Below, in pieces: positions 3,953 through 54,242 of a stretch of DNA of 64,000 nt. A program made the translations under genes and the position numbers. Origin of the DNA: a virus; IMG/VR virus record IMGVR_UViG_3300009702_000016, positions 1-64,000 of that record. One strand, written 5' to 3'. The notes under the pieces are model-generated. The model did not search any database. It was not told the origin of the DNA and saw only the letters and a list, made by a program, of their open reading frames with translations. Within the stretch, counting starts at the first letter, position 1. Every line of letters begins with the position of its first letter.

Positions 3953-4285
3953 ATGACAAAAAACGAAGAAGAAGAAGAAGACGAGAGATTTACGGTGATC
4001 GTAGACCTCCTTAGTCACATGTGCGATGAACTCGTGGATGATCCTAAGTCCTTGACATTTAACTCGGCTTACACGGGTGTGACAGGTGTCATCGAAGTCG
4101 TAGGGCCACAGAATGAGGTTAGCAAGATATTCGGAGCACACAAGGCAACGATCATGGCCATCGAAACTGTGATTAGAAATGTCGCAGCGAAGAATGGATT
4201 TCGTATTCTTATCAACATACTGAACGACGAACGTAAAAAGGACCTTCAAAGTAAGTCGGTCTCCTTTTACGAGGACGAAGACTGA
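3953..4285 (+). CDS. KH-domain RNA-binding protein (KhpA-like)
   Basis: 110 residues. After an acidic N-terminus (NEEEEEDERF), residues about 12-90 look like a single type II KH domain of the KhpA/YlqC kind: strand VIEVV, then NEVSKIF-GAHK (G61-A-H-K64 at the GxxG position), helix ATIMAIETVIRNVAAK, then strand FRILINIL. In bacteria KhpA binds RNA, often as a partner of KhpB. The second GxxG glycine is replaced by Lys, so the RNA loop is not canonical. It sits between the flap exonuclease (7 bases) and dUTPase (3 bases) in one apparent operon. It may act on phage RNA or primers; this is inference. The identification rests on pattern, length and the helix-strand order, not on a search. Confidence 0.55.
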   Translation: MTKNEEEEEDERFTVIVDLLSHMCDELVDDPKSLTFNSAYTGVTGVIEVVGPQNEVSKIFGAHKATIMAIETVIRNVAAKNGFRILINILNDERKKDLQSKSVSFYEDED

Positions 4286-4750: not shown

Positions 4751-6445
4751 ATGAGCAAGAAAGACCCATCCTGCGTACTCAATAGTCAGCTATGGGTCCC
4801 CACAGACCTTGTCACCCGCAAGGCAGAGAAGGACTTTACGTACACCTTCGACAAGGTGGAATACCAGCCAAAGGTAGACCTCCCTCGAATGTGCATGAAC
4901 TGTGACTTGTGGGGAAAGAAGTGGCGTCCAGGAAAGACGACGTGCGAGTCTAAGGGATACTCGGTGGATGACTTGTGCAAAGACTTCACGCACAAGAAGG
5001 AACCAATCCATATCAAGAGCACTCTTAAGACGTACAAGCACCGCTCCGATGGCTGGTCCATATTCTCACGGGGGGATCTATCGAAAATCAAGAAGCACTT
5101 TGCTTCCCTAGGGATAGAAGACCAGAGATCTGCTCCTAGGCTTCCTTTCAAACTCGTTTGCCACCGGGACCTGTATCCTGAACAGGAAGAAGTCGCACAG
5201 CAGTGGCTGGATCACCGATACGGCATCATAAAAGCGCCTACCGGATGGGGCAAAACTGTTCTGTGGGCGTGGCTTGTGGCGAAGCTGCAGATGAAGACAC
5301 TGCTGTTTGCTCAGGAGGTTCGACATCTGATGGTGGGCCTGGAGGGGCTCTACGAGCACACGAACATCGCAGAGCTTGAGGAAGAGGCAGGAGAGCACCT
5401 GATAGGCGTCCTAGAGAAGGATTGGGAGTGGAGGACGGACAGCGACGGAACGAGGCACAGGCACTTCCTGAAGCGGCCTGGGAAGACCTATCCGATCATG
5501 TTCGCCACGTTCCAATCGCTAGCCTCGAAGAAGGGCAAGAAGCTACGTAAGAAAATCAAGAACGACTACGGGCTTGTTTGGCATGAGGAGGGGCATCACT
5601 CCTCAGCGAAGACGTTCTACAAGGCAGCCCGTGCATTCAATCCCAAGTACCGGGGAGGGCAGACCGCTACTCCTACGCGAAAAGACAAGACTCACGTTGC
5701 CATATACGACCTTATCGGTCCTGTTACTGCAACCGGAACGAAGGAGCAGATGACTCCTGAGGTCGAGTTCCATGCCTCGAACATTCTAGTTCCAGACAGT
5801 GTGTTTCGACGGCAATACGTTATGCCAATTCTGGTCAACTTTCTAGCTTCAAATGCAGTCTATCAAGAGCTGTTGTACGAGACCATCATCTCGGACATTG
5901 AGGAGGATAGAAAGATCCTCGTCATCACAGAGCGAAAGAAACATGCCCTTAATCTGCAGAGCAAGCTTAAGTTGGAGGGCTTCGGCTGCGAGTTGATGAT
6001 GGGAGGGATGAAGCTCAAGGAGCAAAACTGGTACGCAGAGAAGCTGCTATCCGGTGATATCTCCGTGATCATCGGAACAAGCGTGATCAATGAGAACGTG
6101 AACATCCCGCCCTGGGACACGATACACCTGCCCTTCCCCAACTTTGGTAAGGAGAGGGAGGAGCAGCGAGTCGGACGAATCCGCCGATACCTGTCAGGGT
6201 CCAACAAGGAATACCTGCGTGAAAACGGGATCGAATGGGAGAAGCCAACACCTAGGGTTCACGTATACACATGGCATTCCAGCAATGACATGGCAGAGAA
6301 GGAAGTAAACTTACGAAAGAACCTGTACAAAAGCTGGGGGTTTGAGTTCTCCGCAGGGGCCGAAGCGGAGAGCAAAAAGAAGAGAAGGCCAAAAACAATG
6401 AAAGACTGGTTAAAAGACTGTGGAGAGGATGACAACGATGAGTAA
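4751..6445 (+). CDS. Superfamily 2 DNA/RNA helicase
   Basis: 564 residues. The N-terminal 100 or so residues carry a Cys cluster (MCMNC near 47, then C and C in the following 30 residues) that may bind zinc. The motor core follows: KAPTGWGKT near 160-170 (Walker A), FATFQSL near 255, WHEEGHH near 277-283 in the DEAH-box position, QTATPTR near 303 (motif III) and RVGRIRR near 473 (motif VI). The layout resembles UvsW/RadD-type SF2 helicases that remodel branched DNA. The motif II sequence HEEGHH instead of DE.H is notable: the first Asp is replaced by His. The C-terminus is basic then acidic. ATGAGTAA couples it to the next gene. Confidence 0.85.
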   Translation: MSKKDPSCVLNSQLWVPTDLVTRKAEKDFTYTFDKVEYQPKVDLPRMCMNCDLWGKKWRPGKTTCESKGYSVDDLCKDFTHKKEPIHIKSTLKTYKHRSDGWSIFSRGDLSKIKKHFASLGIEDQRSAPRLPFKLVCHRDLYPEQEEVAQQWLDHRYGIIKAPTGWGKTVLWAWLVAKLQMKTLLFAQEVRHLMVGLEGLYEHTNIAELEEEAGEHLIGVLEKDWEWRTDSDGTRHRHFLKRPGKTYPIMFATFQSLASKKGKKLRKKIKNDYGLVWHEEGHHSSAKTFYKAARAFNPKYRGGQTATPTRKDKTHVAIYDLIGPVTATGTKEQMTPEVEFHASNILVPDSVFRRQYVMPILVNFLASNAVYQELLYETIISDIEEDRKILVITERKKHALNLQSKLKLEGFGCELMMGGMKLKEQNWYAEKLLSGDISVIIGTSVINENVNIPPWDTIHLPFPNFGKEREEQRVGRIRRYLSGSNKEYLRENGIEWEKPTPRVHVYTWHSSNDMAEKEVNLRKNLYKSWGFEFSAGAEAESKKKRRPKTMKDWLKDCGEDDNDE

Positions 6446-7080: not shown

Positions 7081-7647
7081 ATGCGCTCTGGTCGTAGAAC
7101 CCAGGATTACCACTTTATCAAGACGGAGAGGGATGCCCTCTACTATGCAGCAGAGATCCCCTCCGTTGCTTGGGGTCCCCCTCCAAAAGAAGTAAATCCT
7201 CCCTTCAAGGTGATCGTAGCTGACAGCTACACTGTCACTCCCAAGGAGCAGAAGAAGTGGTTCGATTCCCTGTGGGAAGGGGAGATGTTCAGTGTTCCTT
7301 ACCTGATCATCGTGTCCTCTGACGAGGATGACAGTGTGGCGGTGTCCCTAGGATACAACCTGATGAAGAAAGCCCTAGAGAATAATCGTGTACAGATTAC
7401 TGGGTCCGCTGGAATCAAAGAGGAGGAGACGAACGAAGAGACCGTCTTCATGCTCACCAATCTATACAGCGAAGCACCCGAAGAAAGGATTCAGAAAGTG
7501 CGTGACTGGTGTTACAGGCATAAGGACTGTTTCCGTATACTCTGCTCCGCAGGAGACCCCGCAGTGCTCGTAAGACGCCTTCATTTGAGGTTCAACGCAG
7601 TGTTTTCAGTGGAATCAGTACGACACGAGGAGCACAGTTTCGTATGA
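7081..7647 (+). CDS. Possible degenerate AAA+-like protein, candidate helicase loader
   Basis: 188 residues, not firmly recognised. Its end overlaps the DnaB-type helicase start in ATGA, so both are made together, the usual place for a helicase loader or primosome protein. Strand-like segments FKVIVADSYT and VPYLIIVSS, then VFMLTNLYSEAPEERIQKVR and FRILCSAGDPAVLVRRL, recall the core strands and sensor 1 region of small AAA+ loaders. No Walker A motif is present, so any ATPase activity is doubtful. The loader reading is inference from position and strand order only. Confidence 0.5.
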   Translation: MRSGRRTQDYHFIKTERDALYYAAEIPSVAWGPPPKEVNPPFKVIVADSYTVTPKEQKKWFDSLWEGEMFSVPYLIIVSSDEDDSVAVSLGYNLMKKALENNRVQITGSAGIKEEETNEETVFMLTNLYSEAPEERIQKVRDWCYRHKDCFRILCSAGDPAVLVRRLHLRFNAVFSVESVRHEEHSFV

Positions 7648-8972
7648 AGATCATTCGTCCGAAGGCCGAAGAGAAGGCCATCCTGTCCATCCTACAGGGG
7701 TCTTCCAAGGTAAAGACCGAGCTTCTCGGAACCCTGTCTGCCGATCATTTTGGGTATACCCCAATGCACGCAGCGTTCCGTGCCATTGAGAGAATGCTCG
7801 TTACTTCTGCACTCGACCTGCCTTCGATGGAGACTTTCCTGAGCCACCCTGACCTAGATCAGGAGTCAGTGGCTATTCTTGGGTCCCCTACAGTGAGTCC
7901 GATTCGGAATGTTGACGATGCGAAGCGTCTAGTGCACATGCTAGACCATTACCGAATTGTTCGTACCTACTACACTTTCAGTTCGAACACCCTAAAAAGG
8001 ATGGAGGAAGAAGACAAGATAAACCTCACTGAACTCACTGACGACATGGAAGAGTGTCTGTCTACGATGAGGTCAGACGTGGGTGAGGTCCCTCTCTATC
8101 ATGTAGGAAGAGGAGTCAAGGACGAAGAGGCTGACGTACTGATGACCGAAGTGTTCGACAATAAGCCTGTTAAATTGATAGCGAGCACGTTCAACAACTT
8201 TGATTCTCGGACGGGAGGCTTCGGTACAACCGATCTGTTCATCCCTGCTTCCCACAAGAAGGGAGGCAAGTCCATCATGACTCTCAACATGGCAGCCAAC
8301 ATTCATATGAATGGCCATGATGTGATCTACATTCCCTTAGAGATGAACAAGCAAGAGACTGCAGAACGAATCATCTCTATGCTCTCTGGCGTAGAGCACA
8401 CCAAAATCCGAACGAAGAGTACGACCGCGATGGAGTACTCGAAGATGGGCAAGACCTGGAAGAGATTCAAACTTCGAGGAAGAAAGAAGAAGAATCGATT
8501 CACAGTGTGGCCGACCTCGCATACCAGCGTTAGCCATCTTAGAATCAAGCTAAAGCCCTTCAGGTATAATGTTATAGTAATCGACTACATTAACCTGCTA
8601 GATCACCCCAATAGCCATAAGATGCAAGACTGGCAGAAGCTAAACGACCTTGCACGAGAGTTGAAGCTCATGGCGAAGGATCTGAACGCCCTAGTGATTG
8701 CCCCGACACAGATGAACGAGGATGGAAGCCTACGGTATGCTCGTGGACTTGCGGAGCACGCAAATACCGTGTGGACGTGGAAGTATGGGGAAGAAGAGAA
8801 GGGAACACACATCCTAGCCATAGACCAACCTGCGGTACGTGGGTGGGCTCCGTTCAAATTTTTCCTGATGGAGGACTTCTCAAGAATGAAAGTTGTCGAC
8901 CATCTGGGAGGGGATCCTGACATGGACGTCGGCTCTCCTGTAAAGGTAAACAGTATGAAGGGACTAAAGTAA
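7644..8972 (+). CDS. DnaB-like replicative DNA helicase
   Basis: 442 residues. Residues 1-150 match the all-helical DnaB N-terminal domain (EEKAILSILQG, then DHFGYTPMHAAFRAI). The RecA-like core follows: FNNFDSRTGGF, Walker A ASHKKGGKS near 202-210, VIYIPLEMNKQETAERI near 231-247, Walker B VIVIDYINLLD near 308-318, and LALVIAPTQMN-type motif (NALVIAPTQMNEDG). The protein unwinds DNA ahead of the fork as a hexamer. The Walker A has ASHKK where G..G.G is normal. It starts inside the preceding gene (ATGA) and is followed after 6 bases by the IF-1 homologue. Confidence 0.88.
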   Translation: MKIIRPKAEEKAILSILQGSSKVKTELLGTLSADHFGYTPMHAAFRAIERMLVTSALDLPSMETFLSHPDLDQESVAILGSPTVSPIRNVDDAKRLVHMLDHYRIVRTYYTFSSNTLKRMEEEDKINLTELTDDMEECLSTMRSDVGEVPLYHVGRGVKDEEADVLMTEVFDNKPVKLIASTFNNFDSRTGGFGTTDLFIPASHKKGGKSIMTLNMAANIHMNGHDVIYIPLEMNKQETAERIISMLSGVEHTKIRTKSTTAMEYSKMGKTWKRFKLRGRKKKNRFTVWPTSHTSVSHLRIKLKPFRYNVIVIDYINLLDHPNSHKMQDWQKLNDLARELKLMAKDLNALVIAPTQMNEDGSLRYARGLAEHANTVWTWKYGEEEKGTHILAIDQPAVRGWAPFKFFLMEDFSRMKVVDHLGGDPDMDVGSPVKVNSMKGLK

Positions 8973-8978: not shown

Positions 8979-9200
8979 ATGCCGAAAGACGATCATATAC
9001 ACCTATCTGGCTCCGTAGAAAAAGTGCATCCGGGAGGCCAGTTCAGTGTCTCCTTAGAAAACGGTAATACCGTAACCGCAAGACTTTGCGGGAAGATGCG
9101 AAAGAACCGAATCCATGTGATTCTTGGTGACAAAGTGGATGTCGCTTTGTCCCCCTACGATCTTTCGCATGGCTTTATCACATTCCGACACAAGGTGTAA
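8979..9200 (+). CDS. infA: Translation initiation factor IF-1 homologue
   Basis: 73 residues, the exact size of bacterial IF-1, an OB-fold protein that occupies the A site of the 30S subunit during initiation. The match covers the whole chain: SGSVEKV...F.V.LENGNTVTA, then the signature GKMRKNRIHV, LGDKVDV, LSPYDLSHGFITFR. Against the E. coli IF-1 sequence as I remember it, about half of all positions are identical with no gaps. The RNA-contacting GKMRKN and the end PYDLS.G.I.FR are intact, so it should be functional. It lies between the DnaB-type helicase (6 bases) and a zinc-ribbon gene (1 base) in the replication block. It may favour phage mRNA initiation; the effect is unknown. Confidence 0.92.
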   Translation: MPKDDHIHLSGSVEKVHPGGQFSVSLENGNTVTARLCGKMRKNRIHVILGDKVDVALSPYDLSHGFITFRHKV

Positions 9201-9201: not shown

Positions 9202-9408
9202 ATGAGACCGTTTAATGCCCACTGCTCCAAATGCAACGCTTCGATGTCCATATTCGCAGAGGAAAAGCCTGAACACTGCCCAAAGTGTGGAAGGAAACTG
9301 TTTGACACGAAGTACGAATCTTGTTCCTCTTGCTCTTGTAGGATCAAGAGTGGAGAGGGAAAGTGCGATACCTGCCGCGCAAACTCCGACGAGGGCACAG
9401 ATGAGTAA
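9202..9408 (+). CDS. Small zinc-ribbon protein
   Basis: 68 residues from the ATG at 9202, one base after the IF-1 stop. It contains three CxxC-type pairs: CSKC (8-11), CPKC (about 28-31) and a Cys-rich stretch CSSCSC followed by CDTC, enough for two zinc sites. This resembles double zinc-ribbon proteins that bind nucleic acid or partner proteins. The function is unknown. It overlaps the next gene by ATGAGTAA. It is the first of three consecutive Cys-rich genes. Confidence 0.75.
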   Translation: MRPFNAHCSKCNASMSIFAEEKPEHCPKCGRKLFDTKYESCSSCSCRIKSGEGKCDTCRANSDEGTDE

Positions 9409-9643
9409 CATCGTACACTGTGGTGGTTGCGGGGCCTCCTTAACTGCAATACAGGGACGAGTTCCGAACAAATGCCCGTTGTGTAGAGCGTCTCTTACTG
9501 TGGCGTATGAAGAGGGTAAGAAATGCTTTGCATGTGGATCTACTATAGCCAAAAGGAACTCCGTCTGCCCACAGTGTGATCGTGCCCAGAATGTTCAGCG
9601 TGTAAGTCCTGAGAACAAGCGTCGACCCCAAAAGATAAAGTAA
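9401..9643 (+). CDS. Double zinc-ribbon protein
   Basis: 80 residues from ATG 9401. Four CxxC pairs in order: CGGC (7-10), CPLC (25-28), CFAC (42-45) and CPQC (56-59), spaced as two four-Cys zinc ribbons. A basic tail follows (RVSPENKRRPQKIK), suggesting contact with nucleic acid. The start overlaps the preceding zinc-ribbon stop, and the stop shares its last base with the next start, so translation is probably coupled. The target is unknown. Confidence 0.78.
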   Translation: MSNIVHCGGCGASLTAIQGRVPNKCPLCRASLTVAYEEGKKCFACGSTIAKRNSVCPQCDRAQNVQRVSPENKRRPQKIK

Positions 9644-10029
9644 TGCCGAATTTCATCTCGACTTCTAGTCTTCTGAGGAAGAAGTATGAGGAGAGGAAAG
9701 ATGAGGTTGTTCGTGCTTTTCCTGCTCCCGTTAGCGAGATATGCAGGAACTGTTGGTACCAAGGACCGTGTACCTTTCGAACAATGATTCATCAGCCTCC
9801 TCATAGCTGCTGTGTCTACGAGTTCTTTGGGTCGATGGGGAACAATGAGGCTACTCTGGAAGAGGTCGTTAGCTTTACGTGCGATACCCGATGTAGGGAC
9901 CGACAAAACTGGGTTGGTGATCCCTGTCCGCACAACGAGGAATACTGTTCAAACCACTGCCCTGTATCCAGATACATACTCGGTGAAGATGCCTCGAACA
10001 TCGAGGACGTACCTTACGACGATGGATGA
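9643..10029 (+). CDS. Cys-rich protein, function unknown
   Basis: 128 residues with eleven cysteines, including ICRNCWYQGPC near 33-43, HSCCVYEF near 54-61, FTCDTRC near 78-84 and CPHNEEYCSNHCPVS near 94-108. The spacing suggests one or two zinc sites, or possibly an iron-sulphur site, but matches no family I know. It is third in the run of Cys-rich genes after IF-1 and is followed after three bases by the sliding clamp. The motif CRNC-x-Y-x-GPC is reminiscent of the Cys cluster at the SF2 helicase N-terminus. Confidence 0.7.
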   Translation: MPNFISTSSLLRKKYEERKDEVVRAFPAPVSEICRNCWYQGPCTFRTMIHQPPHSCCVYEFFGSMGNNEATLEEVVSFTCDTRCRDRQNWVGDPCPHNEEYCSNHCPVSRYILGEDASNIEDVPYDDG

Positions 10030-10032: not shown

Positions 10033-11106
10033 ATGAAAGTAGAACTAGAGTCCTCTCTGTTTAGTCAGGCGATAAAGACGTGCGCAACTTTGATGGGAGC
10101 GGAGGTAGATGTCCTCCTTACTGCCGTAGAGAGCGGATTTCTTCGAATTGAAGCAGGAGCAAACAGCTCCTACGTGTACAACACACTCCCTGCGAAGGTA
10201 GCAGCTAAGGGACGTGTGGTGATCCCAATTCAGCGACTCATCGGACTCCCACTCCGGGAGGAGCTAAAACTGACGGCTTCGAGTTCGGAACTGTCCTTCA
10301 AGACAGGATCGTTCACAGGAACACTGAAGGCAAGCAGTGATGTCGACCGGGTGATTGCTCAGCGCCCCTTGAAGAAGTTCAAGCCAACAGTCCATGTTCC
10401 TACGGAAGTGTTCAAGGATGCCCTATCCCGTGTAAGCCTGGGGTCCTCCCTTCCTGGCGCTCAGCTGGGCGTTAGGGTGCAAGTGGGAGAGGATCTCACC
10501 CTGTCTACCACAGACCAGTATCGAGCGGTCATCTACAAGGACGAGCTTGCGCTGGCCCAAACGGAGCTTGACGTGCTTCTCCACCCAGACTTCCTGCATG
10601 GCGCAATGTCCAAGATATTGTCCCCCGAAGTAGGAATGGGAGTACACAAGGGAGTCTTTCACCTATCGACAGACACCGTTTCAATCTACCATCCCTCCAT
10701 CCAGCAACAGCCTGAGGATATCGAAGACTGGATGGACAACGGAATCGACTACAGTAAGAAGGAATGCACGGTAACTGTATCCTGCGACCGCTTGTCCAAG
10801 AACATACGAGAGGTGTCTGCGGTACAGCTAGGGTCGTTGGCCTATGACACCCACTTCGACCTGCTCATTAAGGGACAGCTGGCGCACCTAAGATGTAAGT
10901 CAGACCACGGGTCCACGAAGTCCTCCGTTGAACTGTTCAGGTCGAACGCAACAAAGACGATCACAAAGCTGTCCTCGAAGTACACATTGGAAATGCTGCA
11001 TCTAATCCGTGCAGGAGACTCTGACATCAGCTTTTGGAGTGACTTTATTCTCCTCGAAGGGCACGAAGGAAAGTTTCGTGGACTGATACCTACGGTTGCA
11101 GCATGA
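10033..11106 (+). CDS. DnaN-like sliding clamp
   Basis: 357 residues, close to the 360-370 of bacterial beta clamps, which form a dimeric ring tethering DNA polymerase to DNA. Three consecutive domains of about 120 residues are suggested. The best local signature is LSTTDQYRAVIY near 157-168, corresponding to the T-D-x-x-R block of DnaN domain 2. The C-terminus FRGLIPTVAA ends like the clamp C-terminal strand that lines the partner pocket. Overall divergence is high, so the family is assigned with moderate confidence; a PCNA-like clamp would be shorter. The stop overlaps the next gene by ATGA. Confidence 0.7.
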   Translation: MKVELESSLFSQAIKTCATLMGAEVDVLLTAVESGFLRIEAGANSSYVYNTLPAKVAAKGRVVIPIQRLIGLPLREELKLTASSSELSFKTGSFTGTLKASSDVDRVIAQRPLKKFKPTVHVPTEVFKDALSRVSLGSSLPGAQLGVRVQVGEDLTLSTTDQYRAVIYKDELALAQTELDVLLHPDFLHGAMSKILSPEVGMGVHKGVFHLSTDTVSIYHPSIQQQPEDIEDWMDNGIDYSKKECTVTVSCDRLSKNIREVSAVQLGSLAYDTHFDLLIKGQLAHLRCKSDHGSTKSSVELFRSNATKTITKLSSKYTLEMLHLIRAGDSDISFWSDFILLEGHEGKFRGLIPTVAA

Positions 11107-11486
11107 AATCAAAGGAGCCTGTTCTTCCCTGGAAGTCATTTGCTGATGGGAAGATTACCGAAGTAGAGAACAACTTTTGGGTTGTTCGAATGGGCGTTGT
11201 CGTCAACAAGCCAATCAAGCATAAGAAATACGAGGACAGCTACGTCTCTCTCCATTGCATGACAAGTTCCAGCAAGTCTACTCTAGGCTACTCACTACGA
11301 GCAAAGCGAGAGTTCCACCAGAAGTTCCAGCAGGAAACCTACTTGTCTCTTTTAGCTGACATCGAGAAGCACAAAAATCCAGATCTAGTATACGAAGACC
11401 AGAAAGTCAGGTTGTACAGGTTCAACTCTCAAAAGAATCCTAGCTACTGGTTTTTGGTAAGGTACAGACCCTCTGAGGCAAAATGA
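11103..11486 (+). CDS. Protein of unknown function between clamp and exonuclease
   Basis: 127 residues. It overlaps the clamp gene upstream and the exonuclease gene downstream by four bases each, so the three are probably co-translated. It is rich in Lys and aromatic residues (NNFWVVRMGVVVNKP, SYWFLVRYRP) and looks like a compact alpha/beta fold. No motif was recognised. Its neighbours suggest a replication or repair role, but this is inference only. Confidence 0.65.
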   Translation: MKSKEPVLPWKSFADGKITEVENNFWVVRMGVVVNKPIKHKKYEDSYVSLHCMTSSSKSTLGYSLRAKREFHQKFQQETYLSLLADIEKHKNPDLVYEDQKVRLYRFNSQKNPSYWFLVRYRPSEAK

Positions 11487-12205
11487 CAAAGAGCAAAGTA
11501 ATTGTCATGGACATCGAGACCATTCCCCTGCCTCAGTCCATGCTGTATACAGGGGAGAGCACAGTTGTTCCAATCCTTCAAGAGATCGTTTGCATCTCGT
11601 ATATCGAGTTGGACGACCGCTTCGAGGTTAAGAAGATTCGTACATTGGGTCTTCCTGAAATGAGCGAGAAGGCGGCAATCTCCGCTTTCGTGGGGGAAGT
11701 TTCTTCGGATACTATGGTGGTGACCTGGGGAGGACGAGGATTTGATATCCCTGTTCTCCTATATCGAGCTATGGTCAACGGAATCAAAGCAAAGGCACTC
11801 ACTGGAAAAGAGTTTTCCAACAGGTACAACCCTCTTAGTCACTTGGACCTTCAGGATGACATGACCTTCTTTGGTGCCGTTCGTAAAATCGGGCTAGACT
11901 ACACGTCTGCGGTTCTCGGTTTGCCAGGGAAAATGGAGGTTAAGGCATCTTCTGTGCACGACCTAATCGTCAGGAATAGGTTCAACTCCGTACGTTCTTA
12001 TTGCGTGACTGACGTTGTTCAGACACTCGTCGTATTTCTTCGTTGGGCCTATACGAAAGGCCTTTCTCCCAAGAACGAAGTGAACAACGCACTAGATTCT
12101 TTATTGGACCCGGATATTTATGATGAGTACTCCTTCGCTTCAGAGAAAGAAGGAGTTCAACTGGTCATAAATAACTGTGACTGGGACTCCCTAAAGATTT
12201 GGTAA
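11483..12205 (+). CDS. 3'-5' exonuclease related to the family B polymerase proofreading domain
   Basis: 240 residues. DEDDy-type motifs: VIVMDIETIP near 6-15 (ExoI), VVTWGGRGFDIPVL near 78-91 (ExoII), HLDLQDDMTFFGA near 116-128, and YCVTDVVQTLVVFLR near 173-187 with the Tyr and Asp of ExoIII. The arrangement is that of stand-alone exonucleases of the DNA_pol_B_exo2 kind. It is the second DEDD exonuclease in this block, and differs from the DEDDh enzyme at 6438. It may proofread or process ends. It overlaps the preceding gene by four bases. Confidence 0.8.
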   Translation: MTKSKVIVMDIETIPLPQSMLYTGESTVVPILQEIVCISYIELDDRFEVKKIRTLGLPEMSEKAAISAFVGEVSSDTMVVTWGGRGFDIPVLLYRAMVNGIKAKALTGKEFSNRYNPLSHLDLQDDMTFFGAVRKIGLDYTSAVLGLPGKMEVKASSVHDLIVRNRFNSVRSYCVTDVVQTLVVFLRWAYTKGLSPKNEVNNALDSLLDPDIYDEYSFASEKEGVQLVINNCDWDSLKIW

Positions 12206-12771: not shown

Positions 12772-12857
12772 GGAAAGTTGGCCGAGTGGTCGAAGGCACC
12801 TGATTTGAAATCAGGCGTGCCCTAAAGGCACCGGGGGTTCGAATCCCTCACTTTCCG
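12772..12857 (+). tRNA. tRNA-Ser (anticodon UGA, reads UCA)
   Basis: An 86-base cloverleaf. Acceptor GGAAAGT (12772-12778) pairs with ACTTTCC (12850-12856), with discriminator G at 12857, as in tRNA-Ser. The D stem is GCC/GGC (12781-12783, 12795-12797). The anticodon stem CCTGA/TCAGG encloses loop TTTGAAA, with anticodon TGA at 12806-12808. A long class II variable arm GTGCC/GGCAC is present, and the T stem GGGGG/CCCTC encloses TTCGAAT with one G-U pair. The 3' CCA is not encoded (the next bases are CCG), so a CCA-adding enzyme is needed. It is not a stop-codon suppressor. Confidence 0.96.
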
Positions 12858-12869
12858 CCGAGATGCACT

Positions 12870-14205: not shown

Positions 14206-17200
14206 CTACCTTCTCAGAGCAGCGACTAGAAGATCTACAACATTGAGTCCGTAGGGGTCCAGTCCCTTGGCGTTGGCCTTCTGTACCTCGTTAAGGCGGC
14301 TAACAAGGGTGGATACGTCTCTTTTCTCTTCGTCCGTCTTTTGGTCGTAGTTCCTAAGAAGCTTATCACCGATCTGGAATCCCCTTTCCTCGTTTTCGTC
14401 GGGTTCCGGTTCTTCCTCTCCCTCGTCGAACTCAGGCTCGTCAGGCTCCTCGAAGGGTGCCTCTGGTGGTGCCTCTGGTGGTGCTGGTGGCGCCTCTGGT
14501 GGTGCCTTTGGTAGTTCTTGTACTGGTCGGTCACTGACTATCCGGTCTCCTGATGATAGCGATTCTATCTGGGGGTTGTCACTACGGGCTTCCATGTCCA
14601 GGGCCTTGAAGTAATTGGACATAGCGTTCATGTAGTTTATAACTGAAGCCCTGACCTTGCTAGGGTTATTCTTTGTCAGGAGGGGACTATTCTCCACATA
14701 GGTCACGAGCTTGTCCCTCAGTCTTTTAAGTTCCTTCATCGACAACGACTTATTGATGATTAGTGGTGTATCGTGAAGAGCTTCCGCTACCTCTGATCTA
14801 TACCTTTTTGTTACGCTGCTAAAGTCTTCATCGTATTCCTCTTTAAACTTGTTCTCTACATAGTTCTGTGCCTTTCGAAGGTTGTCAGCAGACCTCCTTA
14901 TCTTAGCACCAGTCCACCTACGAGTTTTCTTCTTCTTAGCGGGGGCTGGAGCCTCAGGAGCAGGAGCAGCAGGAGCTACTGCTGGGGCAGGAGCGGGGGC
15001 TGGTGCTGGAGCCTCAGGAGCCTCATGAAAGAGCTTTACCAGACGAGGAGTTATTCCACCCAGCTTTGCCTTATTCGCTAGTAGCTTGAACGCTTTCTTG
15101 ATAGACTTGCTTTCCCCTGGTCTGCTAATGTAGGTAGAGATAGCAGTGACGACGGCATCTCCCATTTGGTCTAGATTGCTTTCGGCAGCGGTTAAAGCAG
15201 CATGAACTACAGTGTCTCTAAAGTCGTCGGTACTAGTATCCTCCAGGATATTAGAAATAGTTGTAGCTAGCTCGGCCACCATAGAGTTAAAGCTCAAGAC
15301 CTTGAACTTATCATTTTGAGTTAGCTTGTTAGACTTAGGTGCTCTTGGAGGAGGAGCGGTAGGTATGTCCATCGCAAGATAGGCATTTAGCGTTCGTGGT
15401 GTTACTTTACCCCGTTTTGCTTCTCTGACCAGCTGCTTGAACGCCTCGCTTATGATTCTACGGTCTTCTGGGCCATTAAGGTGAGAAGAGATAGCGGACA
15501 TGACATCAGTCACCAGACTGTCCAGATTCTCTTTGGCAGCACTTAGGCCAATCTCCTTTACGGTTTCCTCAAACTCCGGGTCGTTGATCTCCAGGCTCTT
15601 GAAAACTTCCTGCACTAGATGGTACAACTCCCCTATAAAGTTGTGTGCTGCTGCCTCCTCCTTTATAGTTATCTTCTTAGCAGCAGGAGCAGGTGCTGCT
15701 GGAGCCTCAGGGGCGGGTGCAGGAGCAGGAGCTACTGCCGGGGCAGCAGGAGCTACTGCCGGGGCAGGAGCGTTCATCTCTTCATGCGCCTTTAGATACG
15801 AAACGGCATCCTTCTGGCTGATTCCGCTTTGAGCACGAAAAGCTTCCAGACCTCCAAGGTCTGACGCATTTGCTCCCTCGAAGGTAAATCCTTGTTCCCA
15901 GCCTTCGCCAGATTGCGCGATGGCTCTAAGTGCGGCTTCTCCCAAGCCCTCCTTGAGGGAATTTCCTGCATCAACAAAAGTCCTAACTAGAACACTCTTA
16001 TCTTCTTTTCCGGTATAACGGTTGGGTCGATTTTGAGACGTCCCTTCCTCCATTTCTTCTGGACTGCGGCCCGTAGGCCCAGGCATGAAGTCAGGAGCAG
16101 GAGCAGCAGGAGCCTCAGGGGCGGGTGCTGCTGGAGCCTCAGGGGTGGGTGCAGGAGCCTCAGGAGCCTCAGGTGTAGTCGGTGTGTTCTGATCCACCTT
16201 CGAGAAGTAGTGAGCAAAGTCAGCAGCAGTTAGGCCCTCGCCCTCTGCCTCCTTCACCAGGCTATCTGCAACCTTTGACTTTACTCCAGCAGGGAGTCCT
16301 GGGCTTTGTCCTGCAGCAAATGCCCGCATGACATTTTCTACATCCCCAGGCCGGAATACCTTCCTAGTCTTAGCTACAGCACTATGAATGAACTTTTGAG
16401 TCTCCTCGAACTTGTCTCCAGCGGCAGGTGCCTCTGGTTCCTCGTCTAACTCAGGTCCCTCATCGAACTCAAGTTCTGGTGGTTCCTCCTCCTCTGGTGG
16501 TTCCTCGCCTAACTCAGGTCCCTCATCGAACTCAAGTTCTGGTGGTTCCTCGTCTAACTCTGGTTCCTCTTCCTCACCTAACTCGGGTCCCTCTTCCTCC
16601 TCTTCCTCACCTAACTCTGGTTCCTCTTCCTCACCTAACTCTGGTTCCTCTTCCTCACCTAACTCTGGTTCCTCTTCCTCACCTAACTCGGGTCCCTCTT
16701 CCTCCTCTTCCTCACCTAACTCTGGTCCCTCTTCCTCCTCTTCCTCACCTAACTCGGGTCCCTCTTCCTCTTCCTCCAGAGTGGGCTCAGTGGGAATAGG
16801 AGCAGCCTCCTCAGCCTCAGGAGCCTCTTCAGCCTCAGGCTCAGGAGTGGTTTCCTCCTCTAGGTCCTGGGAAGCTAAATCGATGGCGTGATCGAGCAGG
16901 TCCTTGTCCCAGTTTCCGTAGTTTAGCGCTCCCTTAATGTAATTCGCGATCTCTTCCGAACTCTTTCCTGCCGCTGATAGTTTCCTTGCCTTTCCAACAA
17001 GGCCCATGTAAGTGGACTTGAGCATTGGTAGCCAGTTGGCGGGAACACCCTGCAGTAGCTCGATGATGTTTTTCTGGCTCTTTGTAAGGTGTCCTACTGG
17101 GTTATGAACAGCCAGCTCGACAATCTTCTTCAGAAGATCGGAGTCCAGATCTGCTCCCTTTTCTTCAAGGACCTCCACTACGCGATCAACTGATACGTCT

Positions 17201-20200
17201 TTGCCCTCCTTCAACATGGAGGGAAGAACGGCATCTTGGACAAGAGAGTAGGCCTTTTGTATCTTCTTCAAGTCTGAAGGATCTTGTCCCTTCATCAACG
17301 TGGCAATGTCTCTCCTCGTCGGGCTCTTAGTTGAAGGAGGAGGAGTGACGGTCTTCTCCTTCACTCCGTAAAGCGCGTCAAGGACAGCTTTCTTGCTGGA
17401 GTTTAGCCTACGCTTTAACTTGTCACGTTTAAGTCCTGTCGCCTTGTTAGCCTCCAATACCTTTTTGATTGAAGAGGAGATCTTACTCTCTGACTCTTCT
17501 CTAGGAAGATTCTCCTTTTTCAGCGGAACGTACAGATGATGGTATGCGTAGTTTACCAGCACTTGGCTGGCATCTTCATGGTCAGGGTCCCATAGCTCCA
17601 GGACAATCCTAGAGTATGCACTGGAATCCTCCTCTGGGATGCTGTTCTTTTCCGCTAGGTCATCAATGTCGTCCTGGTTGAAGGGAGCATCTTTGCCCTT
17701 GCTGCTACTACTGAACATGTGGGCGATCCCCTCTGTTCCCTTGTAGTTCTCAATTCCCTCCTTTCGGCTCAGCCCGTAAAAGGCCCTGTGCAGAGCATCA
17801 AAGATGTCCTTGTTCCCCTTGTTCTTATCCCTTTGCATTAGGTTTGAAACCGCACCTTGCCAGGACAGGCTGGGATCCTTTTCTGCCTCCTCCTCGACCT
17901 GGGCAATGGCCCGAAGGACCAGGTTGTAGGTTGCAGTGGCCGTTTCAATGTTAACGGATCGGGGCTTCTCTCCTGCCTTCTCGGCCCGCTCCTCTTCTTG
18001 TTCCCTAGCCCTTGAAATCCTGTCCTTTCTTACACTCCTTGTAACTCCCCTGAGGGTGTCAGAAAGATCCATACCTCCTTGACTGATTTGGTAATCCCTA
18101 GCGGAAGGGAATGCGTACAACCTCTTAAGAAGAGGGGAGAAATCCCATTTTTCTGTGCTTTCGTCGTACAGGTCTTGGTGCTCATCCATGAACATCAGAA
18201 GACGTCCGAGAGACTCCTTCAGGAGAGCATTAGGAGAAGACTGCTGAGACTTCCTAAGGTCTTCCTCTGTTGATGACCCCTTAGATAGAGGGTAGATCCA
18301 AGGAGCAAGCACGGAGGGGTCCGAGCCTCTCATTCCCTTGACGTTCTTAAGTTGGTTTCTTAGCAGTTCTCTTGCCATGTTTTCGTCCTCTTCCTCTTCT
18401 TCCACGGGATAAGGAACGTGGAGAGGGCTTAGATCATAGATTCCTTCTGTGACCTTTAGGTCGGGTCTCTTCGTGTCAAAATAGGACTTTATCGCACGAA
18501 GAACACCCGATAAGTTGAATACAGATTTGGCCTTAGGAGAGGGAACAAAGTCATGTATGCTGTGGCCTGTGTACCTACCTTTCTCTCCCTCCTTCGTGTA
18601 CATATGGGAGCTTAACTCGGAGAGAAGAGCAGGCATTGCAGTCTGTCTTTCCTCCGCGCTAAACGTGCTAGATAGGCTATTCTGGATGTAGGAGAGGAGG
18701 TCCTCGTACAGACTAGTTTCCCTTCCAAGGGCAGGTCTTCTAAGTTCTTGGTCTTCGTCCCCCTCTTCCACAGGGTAAGGAACGTATAGAGCACTTAGAT
18801 TGTAGACTCCATCCTTGTGCTTTAGATCGGGTCTCGTGTCAAGATAGGACTTTATCGCATGAAGAACATCCGACAAGTTGGATATAGAGGATTTAGCCGT
18901 AGGAGAGGGGGCAAAGTCATCTATGCTGTGACCCGTGTAGCCGTCTTCCTTCGTGTACATATGGGAGCTTAACTCGGAGAGAAGAGCAGGCAGTGCCTTA
19001 ATTTCCTCTGAGTTGAGAGGGCTAGCTAGGTTATTCTGGATGTAGGAGAGTAGGTCCTTATACAGACTAGTTTCATCCTTAGATTTTTTGGGGATGAGAT
19101 AGCCTTCCTCACTTTTGACGTCCTCAAGAGGAACAACGTAATCCCGAAGATAGGACGACTGCTGGCTCAAGTCATCGTATTTCGGAGGCTCCTCCCCCTT
19201 TTCTCTGGCTTTTTCTGCTTCATCCAACCTGTGATCAAACTCTTTCTGGGCTTCTTCCACCTTCTTGATGAACGCCTTTTGCCTTTCCTCGGACTCCGCT
19301 GCAGCTTCTTCCTGCCTCTTTTGAACCTCCTTCTTTCTCTCCTCGCTCATCTGTATGAACTCGGGCGTCTTTTGCCTTTTCTCTTCCTCCCTAAGAAAAT
19401 CTTCGTGGGATGGAATTTGTGGAATCTCCGATTTAGTAGAACGAGGAACAAAAAACATATTGGCCAACGATGTCTCTTGGCCGTCATAATGCTCTTCCAC
19501 GTAGTTATGAAGCTTTTCAAGAAGATTCACACGCCAGTGTTGAGGCAGACCCTCTAGCACTGCGTTTTTGTCCCTGTCGTACCTTTCCTTGTCCTCTTGG
19601 TACTTTCTACGCATGGCCTCCAGGCCTTCGCTTTCGCTCATATACTCAGCGCGAAGACTCCTAGCTTCTTCTTCATACTCTTCTTCGCTCTTTTCTGATC
19701 CCTTGAGGTATGAGTCAGCTAGATTCCTAGTTTCCTCATCTGTTATCTGTCCTTCGGCAGTCAGAATCGACGTAAGGGTTTCAGTTACATTTTCTTTTGC
19801 TTCATCGCGTTCTGCTCGTGCTCCCTCTAGGTCTGACTCAAGCTTCTTGACGGAATCAGAAAGTTCCTGACTAGCCTCCTTAAGTTCCTCTTCCGTAAAG
19901 TGTGTTACTCCTCCGATTTCTAGGTTTCCTTCTTCATCGTACACGTCTTCGTAATTCGCTACGATATCTGCAACCCTATCTCCACTGGAGGAACCTAGTC
20001 TCTTTAGAAGGGTATTTACATCTTTGAGTGCTCCAAAGTACTTGACTCGTCCCTCCCTAACAGACTTATCTTTGAGGTTCTCATTGTTCTCATACTTCTT
20101 GTTCTCCGTTAGCTGTGCGACCGCGTCACGTAAACGAACAAGATTGTCTCGACCACTAAACTTGGAAAGCTCCGCCTGAGCGGCTGTACGTTGATCTACG

Positions 20201-23200
20201 GCAGCCGCAAGAGCCTCCTCGCCTCTAACATTGACGTAGTGGGAAACTAGCTTTCTTTCTGTTTCATTACGCTTGTTCGCATTATTCTCAACGATTTGAA
20301 TTTTATCCTGTAGGGCCGTAAGCTTTTCTTTGATTTCGGCCCCATCGGTACGCAGGTCCTCTCGGAGACTTTTGATCCTGTTTACTAGCTTCTTGTTCCG
20401 CTTATCATAGACAGCGGAGGCTTTTTCCTCGGCCTTTCGCTGCTCTCTCGTTGCCTTGTTCAACAGGCTGCGAAGAGGTCGCCTGTCTCCCTTCGCTCCC
20501 TGCTGCTGTACCTCCTCCATTAGCTTGTAGAAGCGAGAGTCATCTTCTTCCTTCTTAAGGGAGAGCTTGTTGTTCAGCTTCTCAAGGTCAGCCTCTAGCT
20601 TCTCCCTCTCCTTCGCCTTCTTTCCAAACTCAGGAAGGGACTTGAGCTTCTCCTCAATCTCCTTTCTGGATTTGGAGGATTCTTCATCCTCCTTGGTAGT
20701 GGGAGCGATTGACTGCTCCAGCTTGTTGAACAGAGTTATCTTTCGGAACTCTTCCTCTCGGTCCTTCACCTTGACTGGCTCGATGAACTTATGGGTTACG
20801 CCATTCTCCTCGTCCATGACGGACCTTCGTGCGTCACGGCCAAGCTGGGCAATAGAATCCCTCTGGTACCAGTCCTTGAGAATGTGAGCGTACTTGTCGC
20901 GTAAAGAGGGCTGCTTTCGGACCTCTCTAGTCTTCTTTCGAAACGCACGGGAGAAGGTATCGAGAGCATCTGCGTAAGTGTCCTTAATCCAGCGAAGAGC
21001 AACGGAATCCTCGTCATCCTCGTCGAATAGAGAGTACTTCTTTCCGTACTCATTGGAAGCCATCTGTCCTATGCGATCATAGAGGGAGAGTGAGGACAGC
21101 TGCGCAATGGCATCGTCATCAAGTTGTGCAGGGGCGTTCTTTCCTCTCTTGTAGGGAAGGTCTGACGTTCTGAAAGGTCCGGGGATAGTCCATACCCACC
21201 GTAGGATGTTCTCCTGCTCTGGTGGGATCTTGGCGTCCCGAAGAGTCTCATTGAGGAGTTTCTCTGTGGCTATATTCTTTTCCCCCTCGTTCTCCTTGTT
21301 GCTACTCAATGACCAAAGAATTGGGTCATCCGGCATGCTGTCGCTGCCCCCCATATTCTTTGCCATGACGCGACTGAGAGGCAAGATGGTTTTGATCAGA
21401 GAATCTGACCAGTTGTCATCCATCTCTACTGCCTTTTGCATGAGAAGGGAGAGAAGCTTCTTGTAGGCTCTCCTCTTCATCTTCTTGTAATGGCGAGTAT
21501 TATTTCCGATATTGAGCTTCTTTTGGATCTCTAAATCGGTCAAAGCCGCAGTCTCTGGGCTTTGAGTTGTAGAGATTCCTAAAGCAGCGCTAAGATAGCT
21601 TATCTCCTCACTATCAAGTTCTGAGTTAGGGTCTTTAAGCACATCAGCGATGACTCCAAGTAGGACCTTCGCGTTTTCCCGTGCCTGAGCGGCCTCTTCT
21701 TCGTCTTCTATGTTGGCTACGTCAGCACCGATTTGGTCAATGACATTGACCATATCCGACTCCTCGCCTTCACCCCCGACATTTGTCTTTCCTTCTAGAT
21801 CCTGGTACCTAGTCACATTGACATAGTCGATGTAACTGATAGAGATTTCATCTCCGCTGTTCTCGGGGGAGAAGTAAATACGTCCCTTAGACGTGTCTAG
21901 TCTAAACTCGTCGCTTGCTAATGACGTTATGTCGTTCCCGCCAAGGCCCGCTATCGTAACGGTCTCCCCAATCAGACTCGTACTAAAAATAAGGGACTTG
22001 CTGCTTACTCTGAAGAGGTAGTCGGTTGCAGCCAGTCCCTCACTGAACTCCTTCAGCTTAACATTGCGATTTTTGGTTACTTTCCGAAGTTCCTGCCCAT
22101 CCTCTAGAATGATCTTCAAGTCAGGAGTGGCCCTATTTCTAACGGGGTCCCCCTTCTTTCTAAGCGAGATATACCCCGTAGGTACTGTGTTTCCCTTGGG
22201 GGATGGAAGGACTTCAAACGGAGTACCCGCCGCCCTGTAGACATTTCCACCTCTTCCCTTGATGGTGAGGCTTCCTAGGTCGATCTTTCCCGAGGGGAAA
22301 TCAATGTATCCTCCCCCGTCAGGAATCACTGCTTCCTTGTTCATGGAGCGGGCAGAGCTACCCTTAACAATCCCTTCCTTGAGCTTGTTATGCAGGTCTC
22401 TAAGAGCCCGAGTTGCAGTAACCTTGACAACTGTCAGCAGATTGAACTGTTTCCCTGTTTCGGTATGAATTGCTTTTGGATTGTACTTAAGAACAGAGGA
22501 TCGGAATACATCCATGAGCATGGAGTGCAGGTCTACTAGTGACACCTGGGAGTCGTCAAACACCTTACGGACCTTATTCCAGATCCTCTTTTTATCAGCA
22601 GCTTCCTCTGCCTTTGTCTTTTTCTTCTTTCCCGTTTGATCGTAGTACGTGTACCCATTTGTAATGAGCCTATTGAAGTACCCAGTAAAATACTGGTATA
22701 GGTCAGTAGACTCCCTGTCCATCTTTTTACTTGCGGAACTGACCTTAGTGAGATAAGAGAATGCCTCTGGGGATACCGTTCTGAAGTCTGACATGCCAGG
22801 TATGGCTGCCATGATGTCTTCATCTACTTTCCTCTCAGTAGAGCGGTACACCTTCTCTGTGATGATCGATGCCAGAGGCGTCAACACCGCCATGTCAGGA
22901 GCGACATTCTTTTCCGCAAACGCATATGCCTTTTCCTTAGCTTCTGGAGTTGTTGCGTTTGACAGAAGGTAAGTAAAGCGGAATAGGCTGGAGTCTTCAG
23001 GAAGTAGCGTAGTCTCGGACGCCCTAGAGTTCCTGATTTCTGCTGCTTCGTTTATGATAAGAGGTACGATTTCGTTCAACACTACTTCGGTATCGGGGAA
23101 CCGAAGGATATCCATCCATAGTTTTTGTGCGGCTTCCTGGATCTTGACTACCCTTTGGATAGCCTCCTCCTTCTTGTCCTTCATCGTATCTTTGCTAGAT

Positions 23201-24036
23201 TCGTTATCCTTACTCGGTGCGTATTTTACCTCCACCGTCTTTCCGTTGTCCTCATCTTTAAACGAGAAGGAAGAGGACTCTGGATTGAATCTGTACTTTA
23301 TGTTGTAGGTCTTAGTTCCGTCCTCATTCACTAGAGCCACGGAGACTTTAGACTTTGGCTCCACATCGAAGTCAAGATCTACTTTTCCATCACTTACAAC
23401 GTACCTTTTGGTTACCGTTTTCCACTTAAACCATTCCTTTCCAAGGCTCCAGGTTGACGCGGGCCAACTCTTTCCCTTGTTCCCCTTTCCCTTTTTCTTT
23501 CCTTTTTCCTTTCCTTTGTCGTCCTCTCTTTCGCTGTTACTAAGCTCTTCCTCGGAAGGAACGTTAGTGCCTACCTCGGCATTTTCTGCCTCTTCCTCAA
23601 CTTCCCTGGTATCCTCAGCAGCGCTGTCTTCTGTCCAATATTCCTCATCATCCTCCTCATCAGCCTCATCAGCCTCATCAGCCTCGCTGTCGACGATTAG
23701 GTTGTAGTTTAGGGTAACCTCCTCCCCTCCATAAAGGTCTTCCTTAAGCTGCAGCCTAGTCTCACCTTCTTCATCCTCACCTAGGATTGTGAAAGATTCA
23801 AGACCAGCCCGATTCTCCCCTTCTACCACAGCTAGAAACTTGGTAACACTTGGTGTATCAGGATCGGGAGCCTCGATAGTTAGAGAGTCAAGGTCAGCGT
23901 TGTCTGGAAGCTGAACAGCCAATACTCCGTCGTCCCCTACAATTCCCTCTATGGAACCTTTTGCTTGGGACTCCTCTTCGTTCGCCTCTTCCCCTTCAGA
24001 TGCGGTAATGACTTTTGTACGCCTAACGTTCTTCAT
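14206..24036 (-). CDS. Giant 3276-aa multidomain protein, probable virion component
   Basis: The largest gene, 9.8 kb. N-terminal 1-300: beta-rich segment (GGEEVTLNYNLIVD) with a Lys/Gly/Glu linker. About 585-770: second beta-rich region (GSLTIKGRGGNVYRAAGT; ISISYIDYVNVTRYQDL). About 1130-1610: long charged coiled-coil region. About 1650-1875: a 100-residue domain repeated twice (SLYxDLLSYIQN, LLSELSSHMYTKE, YTGHSIxDF, VPYPVEE). About 2415-2530: acidic EEEEGPELGEEEE-type repeats. About 2615-3200: Ala/Pro-rich linkers separating helical domains, two of which (2792-2895 and 2909-3005) are duplicates. No enzyme motif or membrane segment was seen. Size, repeats and location in the structural array suggest a virion protein such as a tape-measure or internal protein; the type is unknown. 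Confidence 0.75.
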   Translation of the reverse strand: MKNVRRTKVITASEGEEANEEESQAKGSIEGIVGDDGVLAVQLPDNADLDSLTIEAPDPDTPSVTKFLAVVEGENRAGLESFTILGEDEEGETRLQLKEDLYGGEEVTLNYNLIVDSEADEADEADEEDDEEYWTEDSAAEDTREVEEEAENAEVGTNVPSEEELSNSEREDDKGKEKGKKKGKGNKGKSWPASTWSLGKEWFKWKTVTKRYVVSDGKVDLDFDVEPKSKVSVALVNEDGTKTYNIKYRFNPESSSFSFKDEDNGKTVEVKYAPSKDNESSKDTMKDKKEEAIQRVVKIQEAAQKLWMDILRFPDTEVVLNEIVPLIINEAAEIRNSRASETTLLPEDSSLFRFTYLLSNATTPEAKEKAYAFAEKNVAPDMAVLTPLASIITEKVYRSTERKVDEDIMAAIPGMSDFRTVSPEAFSYLTKVSSASKKMDRESTDLYQYFTGYFNRLITNGYTYYDQTGKKKKTKAEEAADKKRIWNKVRKVFDDSQVSLVDLHSMLMDVFRSSVLKYNPKAIHTETGKQFNLLTVVKVTATRALRDLHNKLKEGIVKGSSARSMNKEAVIPDGGGYIDFPSGKIDLGSLTIKGRGGNVYRAAGTPFEVLPSPKGNTVPTGYISLRKKGDPVRNRATPDLKIILEDGQELRKVTKNRNVKLKEFSEGLAATDYLFRVSSKSLIFSTSLIGETVTIAGLGGNDITSLASDEFRLDTSKGRIYFSPENSGDEISISYIDYVNVTRYQDLEGKTNVGGEGEESDMVNVIDQIGADVANIEDEEEAAQARENAKVLLGVIADVLKDPNSELDSEEISYLSAALGISTTQSPETAALTDLEIQKKLNIGNNTRHYKKMKRRAYKKLLSLLMQKAVEMDDNWSDSLIKTILPLSRVMAKNMGGSDSMPDDPILWSLSSNKENEGEKNIATEKLLNETLRDAKIPPEQENILRWVWTIPGPFRTSDLPYKRGKNAPAQLDDDAIAQLSSLSLYDRIGQMASNEYGKKYSLFDEDDEDSVALRWIKDTYADALDTFSRAFRKKTREVRKQPSLRDKYAHILKDWYQRDSIAQLGRDARRSVMDEENGVTHKFIEPVKVKDREEEFRKITLFNKLEQSIAPTTKEDEESSKSRKEIEEKLKSLPEFGKKAKEREKLEADLEKLNNKLSLKKEEDDSRFYKLMEEVQQQGAKGDRRPLRSLLNKATREQRKAEEKASAVYDKRNKKLVNRIKSLREDLRTDGAEIKEKLTALQDKIQIVENNANKRNETERKLVSHYVNVRGEEALAAAVDQRTAAQAELSKFSGRDNLVRLRDAVAQLTENKKYENNENLKDKSVREGRVKYFGALKDVNTLLKRLGSSSGDRVADIVANYEDVYDEEGNLEIGGVTHFTEEELKEASQELSDSVKKLESDLEGARAERDEAKENVTETLTSILTAEGQITDEETRNLADSYLKGSEKSEEEYEEEARSLRAEYMSESEGLEAMRRKYQEDKERYDRDKNAVLEGLPQHWRVNLLEKLHNYVEEHYDGQETSLANMFFVPRSTKSEIPQIPSHEDFLREEEKRQKTPEFIQMSEERKKEVQKRQEEAAAESEERQKAFIKKVEEAQKEFDHRLDEAEKAREKGEEPPKYDDLSQQSSYLRDYVVPLEDVKSEEGYLIPKKSKDETSLYKDLLSYIQNNLASPLNSEEIKALPALLSELSSHMYTKEDGYTGHSIDDFAPSPTAKSSISNLSDVLHAIKSYLDTRPDLKHKDGVYNLSALYVPYPVEEGDEDQELRRPALGRETSLYEDLLSYIQNSLSSTFSAEERQTAMPALLSELSSHMYTKEGEKGRYTGHSIHDFVPSPKAKSVFNLSGVLRAIKSYFDTKRPDLKVTEGIYDLSPLHVPYPVEEEEEDENMARELLRNQLKNVKGMRGSDPSVLAPWIYPLSKGSSTEEDLRKSQQSSPNALLKESLGRLLMFMDEHQDLYDESTEKWDFSPLLKRLYAFPSARDYQISQGGMDLSDTLRGVTRSVRKDRISRAREQEEERAEKAGEKPRSVNIETATATYNLVLRAIAQVEEEAEKDPSLSWQGAVSNLMQRDKNKGNKDIFDALHRAFYGLSRKEGIENYKGTEGIAHMFSSSSKGKDAPFNQDDIDDLAEKNSIPEEDSSAYSRIVLELWDPDHEDASQVLVNYAYHHLYVPLKKENLPREESESKISSSIKKVLEANKATGLKRDKLKRRLNSSKKAVLDALYGVKEKTVTPPPSTKSPTRRDIATLMKGQDPSDLKKIQKAYSLVQDAVLPSMLKEGKDVSVDRVVEVLEEKGADLDSDLLKKIVELAVHNPVGHLTKSQKNIIELLQGVPANWLPMLKSTYMGLVGKARKLSAAGKSSEEIANYIKGALNYGNWDKDLLDHAIDLASQDLEEETTPEPEAEEAPEAEEAAPIPTEPTLEEEEEGPELGEEEEEEGPELGEEEEEEGPELGEEEEPELGEEEEPELGEEEEPELGEEEEEEGPELGEEEEPELDEEPPELEFDEGPELGEEPPEEEEPPELEFDEGPELDEEPEAPAAGDKFEETQKFIHSAVAKTRKVFRPGDVENVMRAFAAGQSPGLPAGVKSKVADSLVKEAEGEGLTAADFAHYFSKVDQNTPTTPEAPEAPAPTPEAPAAPAPEAPAAPAPDFMPGPTGRSPEEMEEGTSQNRPNRYTGKEDKSVLVRTFVDAGNSLKEGLGEAALRAIAQSGEGWEQGFTFEGANASDLGGLEAFRAQSGISQKDAVSYLKAHEEMNAPAPAVAPAAPAVAPAPAPAPEAPAAPAPAAKKITIKEEAAAHNFIGELYHLVQEVFKSLEINDPEFEETVKEIGLSAAKENLDSLVTDVMSAISSHLNGPEDRRIISEAFKQLVREAKRGKVTPRTLNAYLAMDIPTAPPPRAPKSNKLTQNDKFKVLSFNSMVAELATTISNILEDTSTDDFRDTVVHAALTAAESNLDQMGDAVVTAISTYISRPGESKSIKKAFKLLANKAKLGGITPRLVKLFHEAPEAPAPAPAPAPAVAPAAPAPEAPAPAKKKKTRRWTGAKIRRSADNLRKAQNYVENKFKEEYDEDFSSVTKRYRSEVAEALHDTPLIINKSLSMKELKRLRDKLVTYVENSPLLTKNNPSKVRASVINYMNAMSNYFKALDMEARSDNPQIESLSSGDRIVSDRPVQELPKAPPEAPPAPPEAPPEAPFEEPDEPEFDEGEEEPEPDENEERGFQIGDKLLRNYDQKTDEEKRDVSTLVSRLNEVQKANAKGLDPYGLNVVDLLVAALRR
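16440..16790 (-). repeat. Acidic Glu/Pro/Leu coding repeats inside the giant gene
   Basis: On the minus strand this codes repeated blocks of EEEEEEGPELGEEEE and EEPELGEE, built on near-identical DNA units containing TCACCTAACTC and GGTCCCTCTTCCTC. The number of repeats is likely to vary between relatives through slippage or recombination. The complementary frame is open only because of the repeat composition. Confidence 0.85.
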
Positions 24037-39292: not shown

Positions 39293-39485
39293 TTCGTTTT
39301 CTCTTGTTAGAACAAAGTTGTAGTGGTTGTTAGACTGGTTTTTGTTTGGGAGAAAACTTGTGATTTCCTTAAAGTAAAACTTAGACTCGCTTCGATTGGG
39401 TCCTAATGAATACATCAGGGTAAGACTATAGGGTTAACATAATGTTGCTGAAGATTAGTGTCTTACTTCTCAGAAGAAGTAATAG
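39293..39485. promoter_or_regulatory. Leader upstream of the capsid gene
   Basis: 193 bases between the 104-aa gene and the capsid start. It is more A/T-rich than the flanking genes and long for this array, so a separate capsid promoter or processing site is likely. A minus-strand TATAGT at 39432-39427 is a possible -10 with no good -35. I cannot define the promoter. Confidence 0.35.
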
Positions 39486-53790: not shown

Positions 53791-53893
53791 ACTCAGTAGC
53801 TCGTTCAACCCATTTAGGGAGGCCCGGGATCCAATATTCTATCAATGTTATTAACTACCAACTAGTCCGGCTACTCCCCGCTCCCCGCTCCCT

Positions 53894-54020: not shown

Positions 54021-54029
54021 CACTGACTA

Positions 54030-54130: not shown

Positions 54131-54242
54131 ACTGACTCCTCCCTCCCACTGTAGAAATCACTCCTTGATAGTTAGACCCTCTATTGTCCCTGACTACTCT
54201 ACTCGGAGCCACTACAGGCCTAGCTCACCAGGAGAGACTACT

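Follow-up and report, generated by a model that had tools for sequence, protein, structure and literature searches.

A translation initiation factor IF-1 homologue in the replication operon of a phage lineage, with changes on its uS12-facing side

Why would a tailed phage keep a homologue of a bacterial translation initiation factor among its replication genes, and does the protein act on the ribosome as its bacterial counterpart does? An IF-1 (infA) gene in a 64,000-nucleotide stretch of DNA (the window), part of a 164,031-bp linear IMG/VR virus record, raises this question. A preliminary description of the window had called phage IF-1 homologues rare, adding that a few huge phages are known to carry translation factors; the rarity was not borne out. 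According to Al-Shayeb et al. 2020 (PMC7162821), IF1 and IF3 are among the genes found in many huge phages, and “translation initiation factor 1A” is a core gene of the Jug phages (PMC12363816). IF-1 is also present in Lak phages and annotated in Sinorhizobium phage Phosso, and one IMG/VR scan gave at least 593 confirmed relatives, so that the gene is common among viral contigs, although some of these will be bacterial DNA or prophage edges. Phage-encoded IF-1 in huge phages is already known, and the present lineage is a separate one. Our literature searches found surveys that list the genes and no functional study of any phage IF-1. Three other viral IF-1s (L043, L044 and L045) could, were translation to start at an upstream ATG, have a basic, aromatic extension at the N terminus, reminiscent of extended phage bS21 proteins (PMC7162821).

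Identity and genomic setting of the phage IF-1

The open reading frame occupies exactly 8979-9200, from an ATG start to a TAA stop, and begins 6 bp past the stop codon of a DnaB helicase gene. The whole product matches the TIGR00008 infA equivalog at 85.9 bits (E 1.3e-24; cut-off 61.15) and PF01176 at 66.4 bits (cut-off 30.2). Its best relative in the PDB is E. coli IF-1 (9fco chain I; 72 bits, E 2.1e-19, residues 1-71 aligned), with which it shares 53% identity. Judged from these scores, the homology is far beyond chance, and the preliminary description was right in reporting a full-length homologue that matches E. coli IF-1 at roughly half of its positions. The archaeal/eukaryotic eIF-1A family was not matched (TIGR00523, 19.8 bits vs a cut-off of 102.9), the RsgA OB domain PF16745 fell below its cut-off (25.8 vs 27 bits), and no second IF-1 was found in the 164,031-bp record.

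An AlphaFold2 model built from 22 sequences (mean pLDDT 87.2) has the secondary structure of IF-1, with predicted strands at 7-17, 21-26 and 31-36, a helix at 39-42, and strands at 52-57 and 64-71. The predicted protein consists of one OB-fold domain, ~72 residues long, in which a short helix separates strand 3 from strand 4. Solved IF-1s ranked first when the model was searched with Foldseek, and it superimposed on 30S-bound E. coli IF-1 (9fco chain I) with an rmsd of 1.0 Å and a TM-score of 0.88.

The record is that of a tailed phage, based upon its genes for a terminase large subunit, portal, major head protein, topoisomerase II, clamp loader, family A DNA polymerase and gyrase B (Table 1), so that IF-1 lies on a genuine phage genome. 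On the + strand, the operon encodes, in order, a 5'-3' exonuclease, a KH-like protein, dUTPase, a helicase, an exonuclease-like protein, DnaB, IF-1, Cys-rich proteins, the clamp and a PolB-type exonuclease. The earlier placement of IF-1 in a replication operon is therefore correct, with DnaB ending at 8972 and the DNA polymerase processivity factor starting at 10033. The 128-aa Cys-rich protein of this operon matched no Pfam family.

Table 1. Features of the window in the neighborhood of IF-1 and among the structural genes
Feature	Position	Strand	Evidence
Superfamily 2 helicase, same operon, upstream	4751-6445	+	PF04851, PF00271; PHROG 16
DnaB-like replicative helicase, directly upstream of IF-1	7644-8972	+	PF03796, 97.3 bits; PHROG 19; synteny
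IF-1 (infA) homologue, 73 aa	8979-9200	+	TIGR00008, PF01176; AlphaFold2 model matching solved IF-1s
Small Cys-rich (zinc-ribbon-like) protein, directly downstream	9202-9408	+	Weak sub-threshold zinc-ribbon matches; relatives in L021, L111
Second small double-zinc-ribbon-like protein	9401-9643	+	PF12773, 25.6 bits, under the cut-off of 27.3
128-aa Cys-rich protein	9643-10029	+	Near IF-1 in 5/5 relatives, 58-70% identity
DNA polymerase processivity factor (sliding clamp)	10033-11106	+	PHROG 947, E 3.6e-13
PolB-type 3'-5' exonuclease	11483-12205	+	PF10108, 131.1 bits
tRNA-Ser(TGA), only tRNA in the record	12772-12859	+	ARAGORN; Rfam RF00005
Major head protein	38174-39415	-	PHROG 2522, E 1.4e-59
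Portal protein	44852-47176	-	PHROG 16240, E 4.9e-97
Terminase large subunit	48382-50427	-	PHROG 17415, E 9.8e-104

Pfam scans of most of the other open reading frames in the record revealed a sub-threshold KH domain but no further translation factor. This KhpA/KhpB-type RNA-binding domain (28.7 bits, just below the cut-off of 32.1) belongs to a small protein of the same operon (3953-4285, + strand). IF-3 and bS21 were found neither in the record nor in the five relatives described below.

Other features of the window were also recorded. A single 3276-aa open reading frame (14206-24036, - strand) includes long stretches of repeats, acidic and Glu-rich or Pro/Ala-rich, and a free-standing homing-endonuclease/HNH-type gene (36457-38085, - strand; PHROGs 559 and 3339) adjoins the major head protein gene. 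Where two gene blocks of opposite direction are separated by a stretch with few genes, a 26-bp unit is repeated about three times almost perfectly and is followed by a 59-bp unit present twice (53889-54141); these repeats could mark an origin of replication or a regulatory region.

Relatives, constraint and descent

A single-sequence scan of viral contigs gave no matches for the phage IF-1, and alignment-based scans were needed; these revealed five further clade members (L021, L022, L023, L110 and L111) that are 60-75% identical. Gene order around IF-1 is identical in all five, always DnaB and then IF-1, and a DnaB-seeded scan added no close DnaB relative. Terminase is 60-73% identical in four of the five, while the fifth, a 58-kb fragment, gave no match. 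Three of the relatives measure 388, 392 and 424 kb and have 29, 43 and 35 tRNA matches, respectively, which suggests a lineage that invests in translation. Most of the tRNA matches in these three (L022, L023 and L111) are clustered far from the IF-1 locus. Class II tRNA synthetases (PF00152) were not found in the three largest relatives. The present linear record, at 164 kb, lies under the 200-kb line for huge phages; with a single tRNA against 29-43 in relatives of 388-424 kb, it is probably part of a huge phage whose tRNA-rich arm is missing.

Within the lineage, conservation of IF-1 (60-75% identity) equals or exceeds that of DnaB (43-70%) and the clamp (25-51%). Pairwise dN of IF-1 is 0.12-0.32 across the clade, and dN/dS is not given because dS is saturated in most pairs. 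As these alignments read, IF-1 is under strong constraint and is retained for a function.

These data also bear on whether the gene is contamination or a recent passenger from a host, serving no phage function. Several “phage” database records with infA are really bacterial contigs, so the concern has precedent. Here, though, phage replication genes lie on both sides of IF-1, the same record encodes terminase, portal and head protein, IF-1 occupies the same place in five divergent relatives, and the closest bacterial IF-1 among the best 80 of 589 confirmed matches is 57% identical, vs 60-75% within the clade. An origin of this kind is extremely improbable, and contamination of the present record was rejected on the basis of conserved synteny and constraint.

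Separately, five records filed as phages look like bacterial contigs: OR844994, MT835508, OR846589, CAKLQH020000005 and MT836419 (L010, L011, L012, L018 and L020). In CAKLQH020000005, infA lies beside truA and leu genes; in the other four, it lies beside rpmJ with rpsM and/or rpsK.

Phylogeny against bacterial infA, which the preliminary description had proposed as a check, gave a divided answer. In a tree of 145 sequences and 72 columns, in which 68 of 140 inner branches are unresolved, the six lineage IF-1s form one clade (SH-aLRT 94) nested in a mostly viral part (54 other viral sequences and one bacterial; support 88), but a grouping of the clade with bacterial sequences was not rejected (p-AU 0.087). 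LR756508, the IF-1 of a 484-kb phage, joins the clade only with a support of 62. On this sequence evidence, recent acquisition of IF-1 from the host appears unlikely.

Ribosome-contact residues

Mapping based on C. difficile IF-1 and 1HR0 places positions 39 and 42 at the 530 loop and R41 and R46 at A1492/A1493, with K39 and R41 serving as 530 loop and h44 contacts, while H35, Y60, R64 and R66 face uS12 (PMC10913371). In the phage protein, GKMRKN occurs literally at 38-43 and PYDLS at 59-63; K39, M40, R41, K42 and N43 of the A-site loop are retained, as is Y60. The second motif reads PYDLSHGFITFR, the bacterial form being PYDL(S/T)(K/R)GRI..R, and is not intact at the consensus Arg. Both motifs had been described as intact, in a notation whose dots hid K64H and whose “G.I” skipped R66F. 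That description holds for the 16S-binding loop GKMRKN and fails for the uS12 side, and R46H is a further change.

All six clade members are changed at the uS12 side (His35 to Arg/Lys, Lys64 to His, Arg66 to Ile/Phe), with residue 66 being Phe in the present protein and Ile in its relatives. R46 is replaced by His only in the present member. Loss of ribosome-contact residues, named beforehand as the outcome that would speak against a functional factor, is thus partial: K39, R41, K42 and Y60 are kept, and R46 (A1492/A1493) and R66 (uS12 side) are replaced by H46 and F66. These two are usual but not defining: they are common interface residues, whereas membership of the family is decided by the profile score.

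Arg66 occurs in 75 of 75 distinct bacterial sequences, taken from the best 80 of 589 confirmed matches as picked by similarity, in a scan whose pattern restricted position 66 to R, F or I and position 64 to K, H or R. It also occurs in 63 of 64 other viral sequences, with LR756508 as the sole exception. Within these comparisons, the uS12-facing surface altered in the phage lineage appears hardly to vary among bacteria, and the clade-wide change at 35/64/66 is the one unusual point of the lineage. Strands 3 and 5 of the OB fold are neighbors. A basic residue at 35 could therefore partly stand in for Arg66, although this is a guess. With R46 and R66 lost, the affinity of the phage IF-1 for the ribosome may be lower or different.

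The phage protein resembles bacterial IF-1 (infA; TIGR00008, PF01176) in its length, OB fold, GKMRKN loop, Y60 and overall identity to the E. coli factor, and differs in lying in a phage replication operon rather than the bacterial locus and in its residues at 35, 64, 66 and, here, 46. With the huge-phage IF1s (Al-Shayeb et al. 2020, Lak, Jug, Phosso) it shares placement on a large phage genome in tRNA-rich lineages; however, it is 43-53% identical to the Lak, Phosso, LR756511 and LR756508 proteins, belongs to a separate phage lineage, and is distinguished by its fixed place behind DnaB and by the loss of Arg66, seen among the other viral sequences only in LR756508. Giant eukaryotic viruses, Klosneuvirus among them, likewise encode initiation factors with the same core fold, of the eIF1A type, but these proteins are longer and 14-30% identical, and the hosts are of a different kind.

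Retention of the A-site loop and Y60 throughout the clade points to the ribosome. It thereby argues against action of the OB fold on RNA off the ribosome, as an RNA chaperone or transcription antiterminator, a role with precedent in E. coli IF-1, which has both activities and can substitute for cold-shock proteins (PMC3017892). We regard such a role as very unlikely. A kept loop combined with the loss of R46 and R66 could also yield a factor that binds but is faulty, that is, an A-site decoy occupying 30S without normal initiation and lowering host translation. Host shut-off of this type is highly improbable, in that the phage depends on the same ribosomes as its host, the relatives retain R46, and constraint spans the whole IF-1 protein.

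Possible roles in infection

The protein is probably a working huge-phage IF-1, acting during infection alongside the host factor or in its place. This reading draws on the infA equivalog match, the predicted IF-1 fold, the retention of K39, R41, K42, N43 and Y60, the shared gene order, constraint, and the tRNA-rich relatives; the loss of R46 and R66 and the absence of IF-3 and bS21 from the record and its relatives appear to count against it. Given its operon position, IF-1 would probably be produced along with the replication proteins in the early phase of infection. Its conserved residues and fold suggest that, like bacterial IF-1, it would occupy the A site of host 30S subunits, placing loop 38-43 into the groove that separates the 530 loop from helix 44 and bringing Arg41 close to A1492/A1493. 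The presumed benefit is that added or substituted IF-1 would hold initiation high during takeover of host gene expression. The altered uS12-facing side (basic at 35, His at 64, Ile/Phe at 66) most likely tunes affinity for, or release from, the host ribosome.

The same surface might do more than this. Helix H8 of IF2 also contacts uS12 (PMC13345285), and the altered side could therefore affect IF2 and subunit joining. Selective initiation, in which the altered surface favors phage messages or other start sites over host messages, would fit this shared contact as well as the change of all three positions in six of six members at a site where Arg66 was otherwise constant in the bacterial sequences compared. 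Against it, the Shine-Dalgarno signals of phage genes are weak and of the ordinary kind, with normal spacing, as judged from crude start calls, so that nothing visible sets phage messages apart; when non-Shine-Dalgarno initiation was looked for on the phage genes, subject to the same crude calls, the result was weak. We consider selective initiation distinctly unlikely. The broader proposal, that a huge-phage lineage evolved a specialized IF-1 with a rebuilt uS12 side (basic at 35, His64, no Arg66) so that the loaded 30S starts differently, is unlikely. If true, the phage would control initiation through a single 73-residue protein.

This lineage offers a clean test case: the gene is conserved, holds a fixed place and is under strong constraint, and its product is definitely altered at an interface position that hardly varies in bacteria. 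It could reveal if a virus steers the start of protein synthesis by exchanging one small factor.
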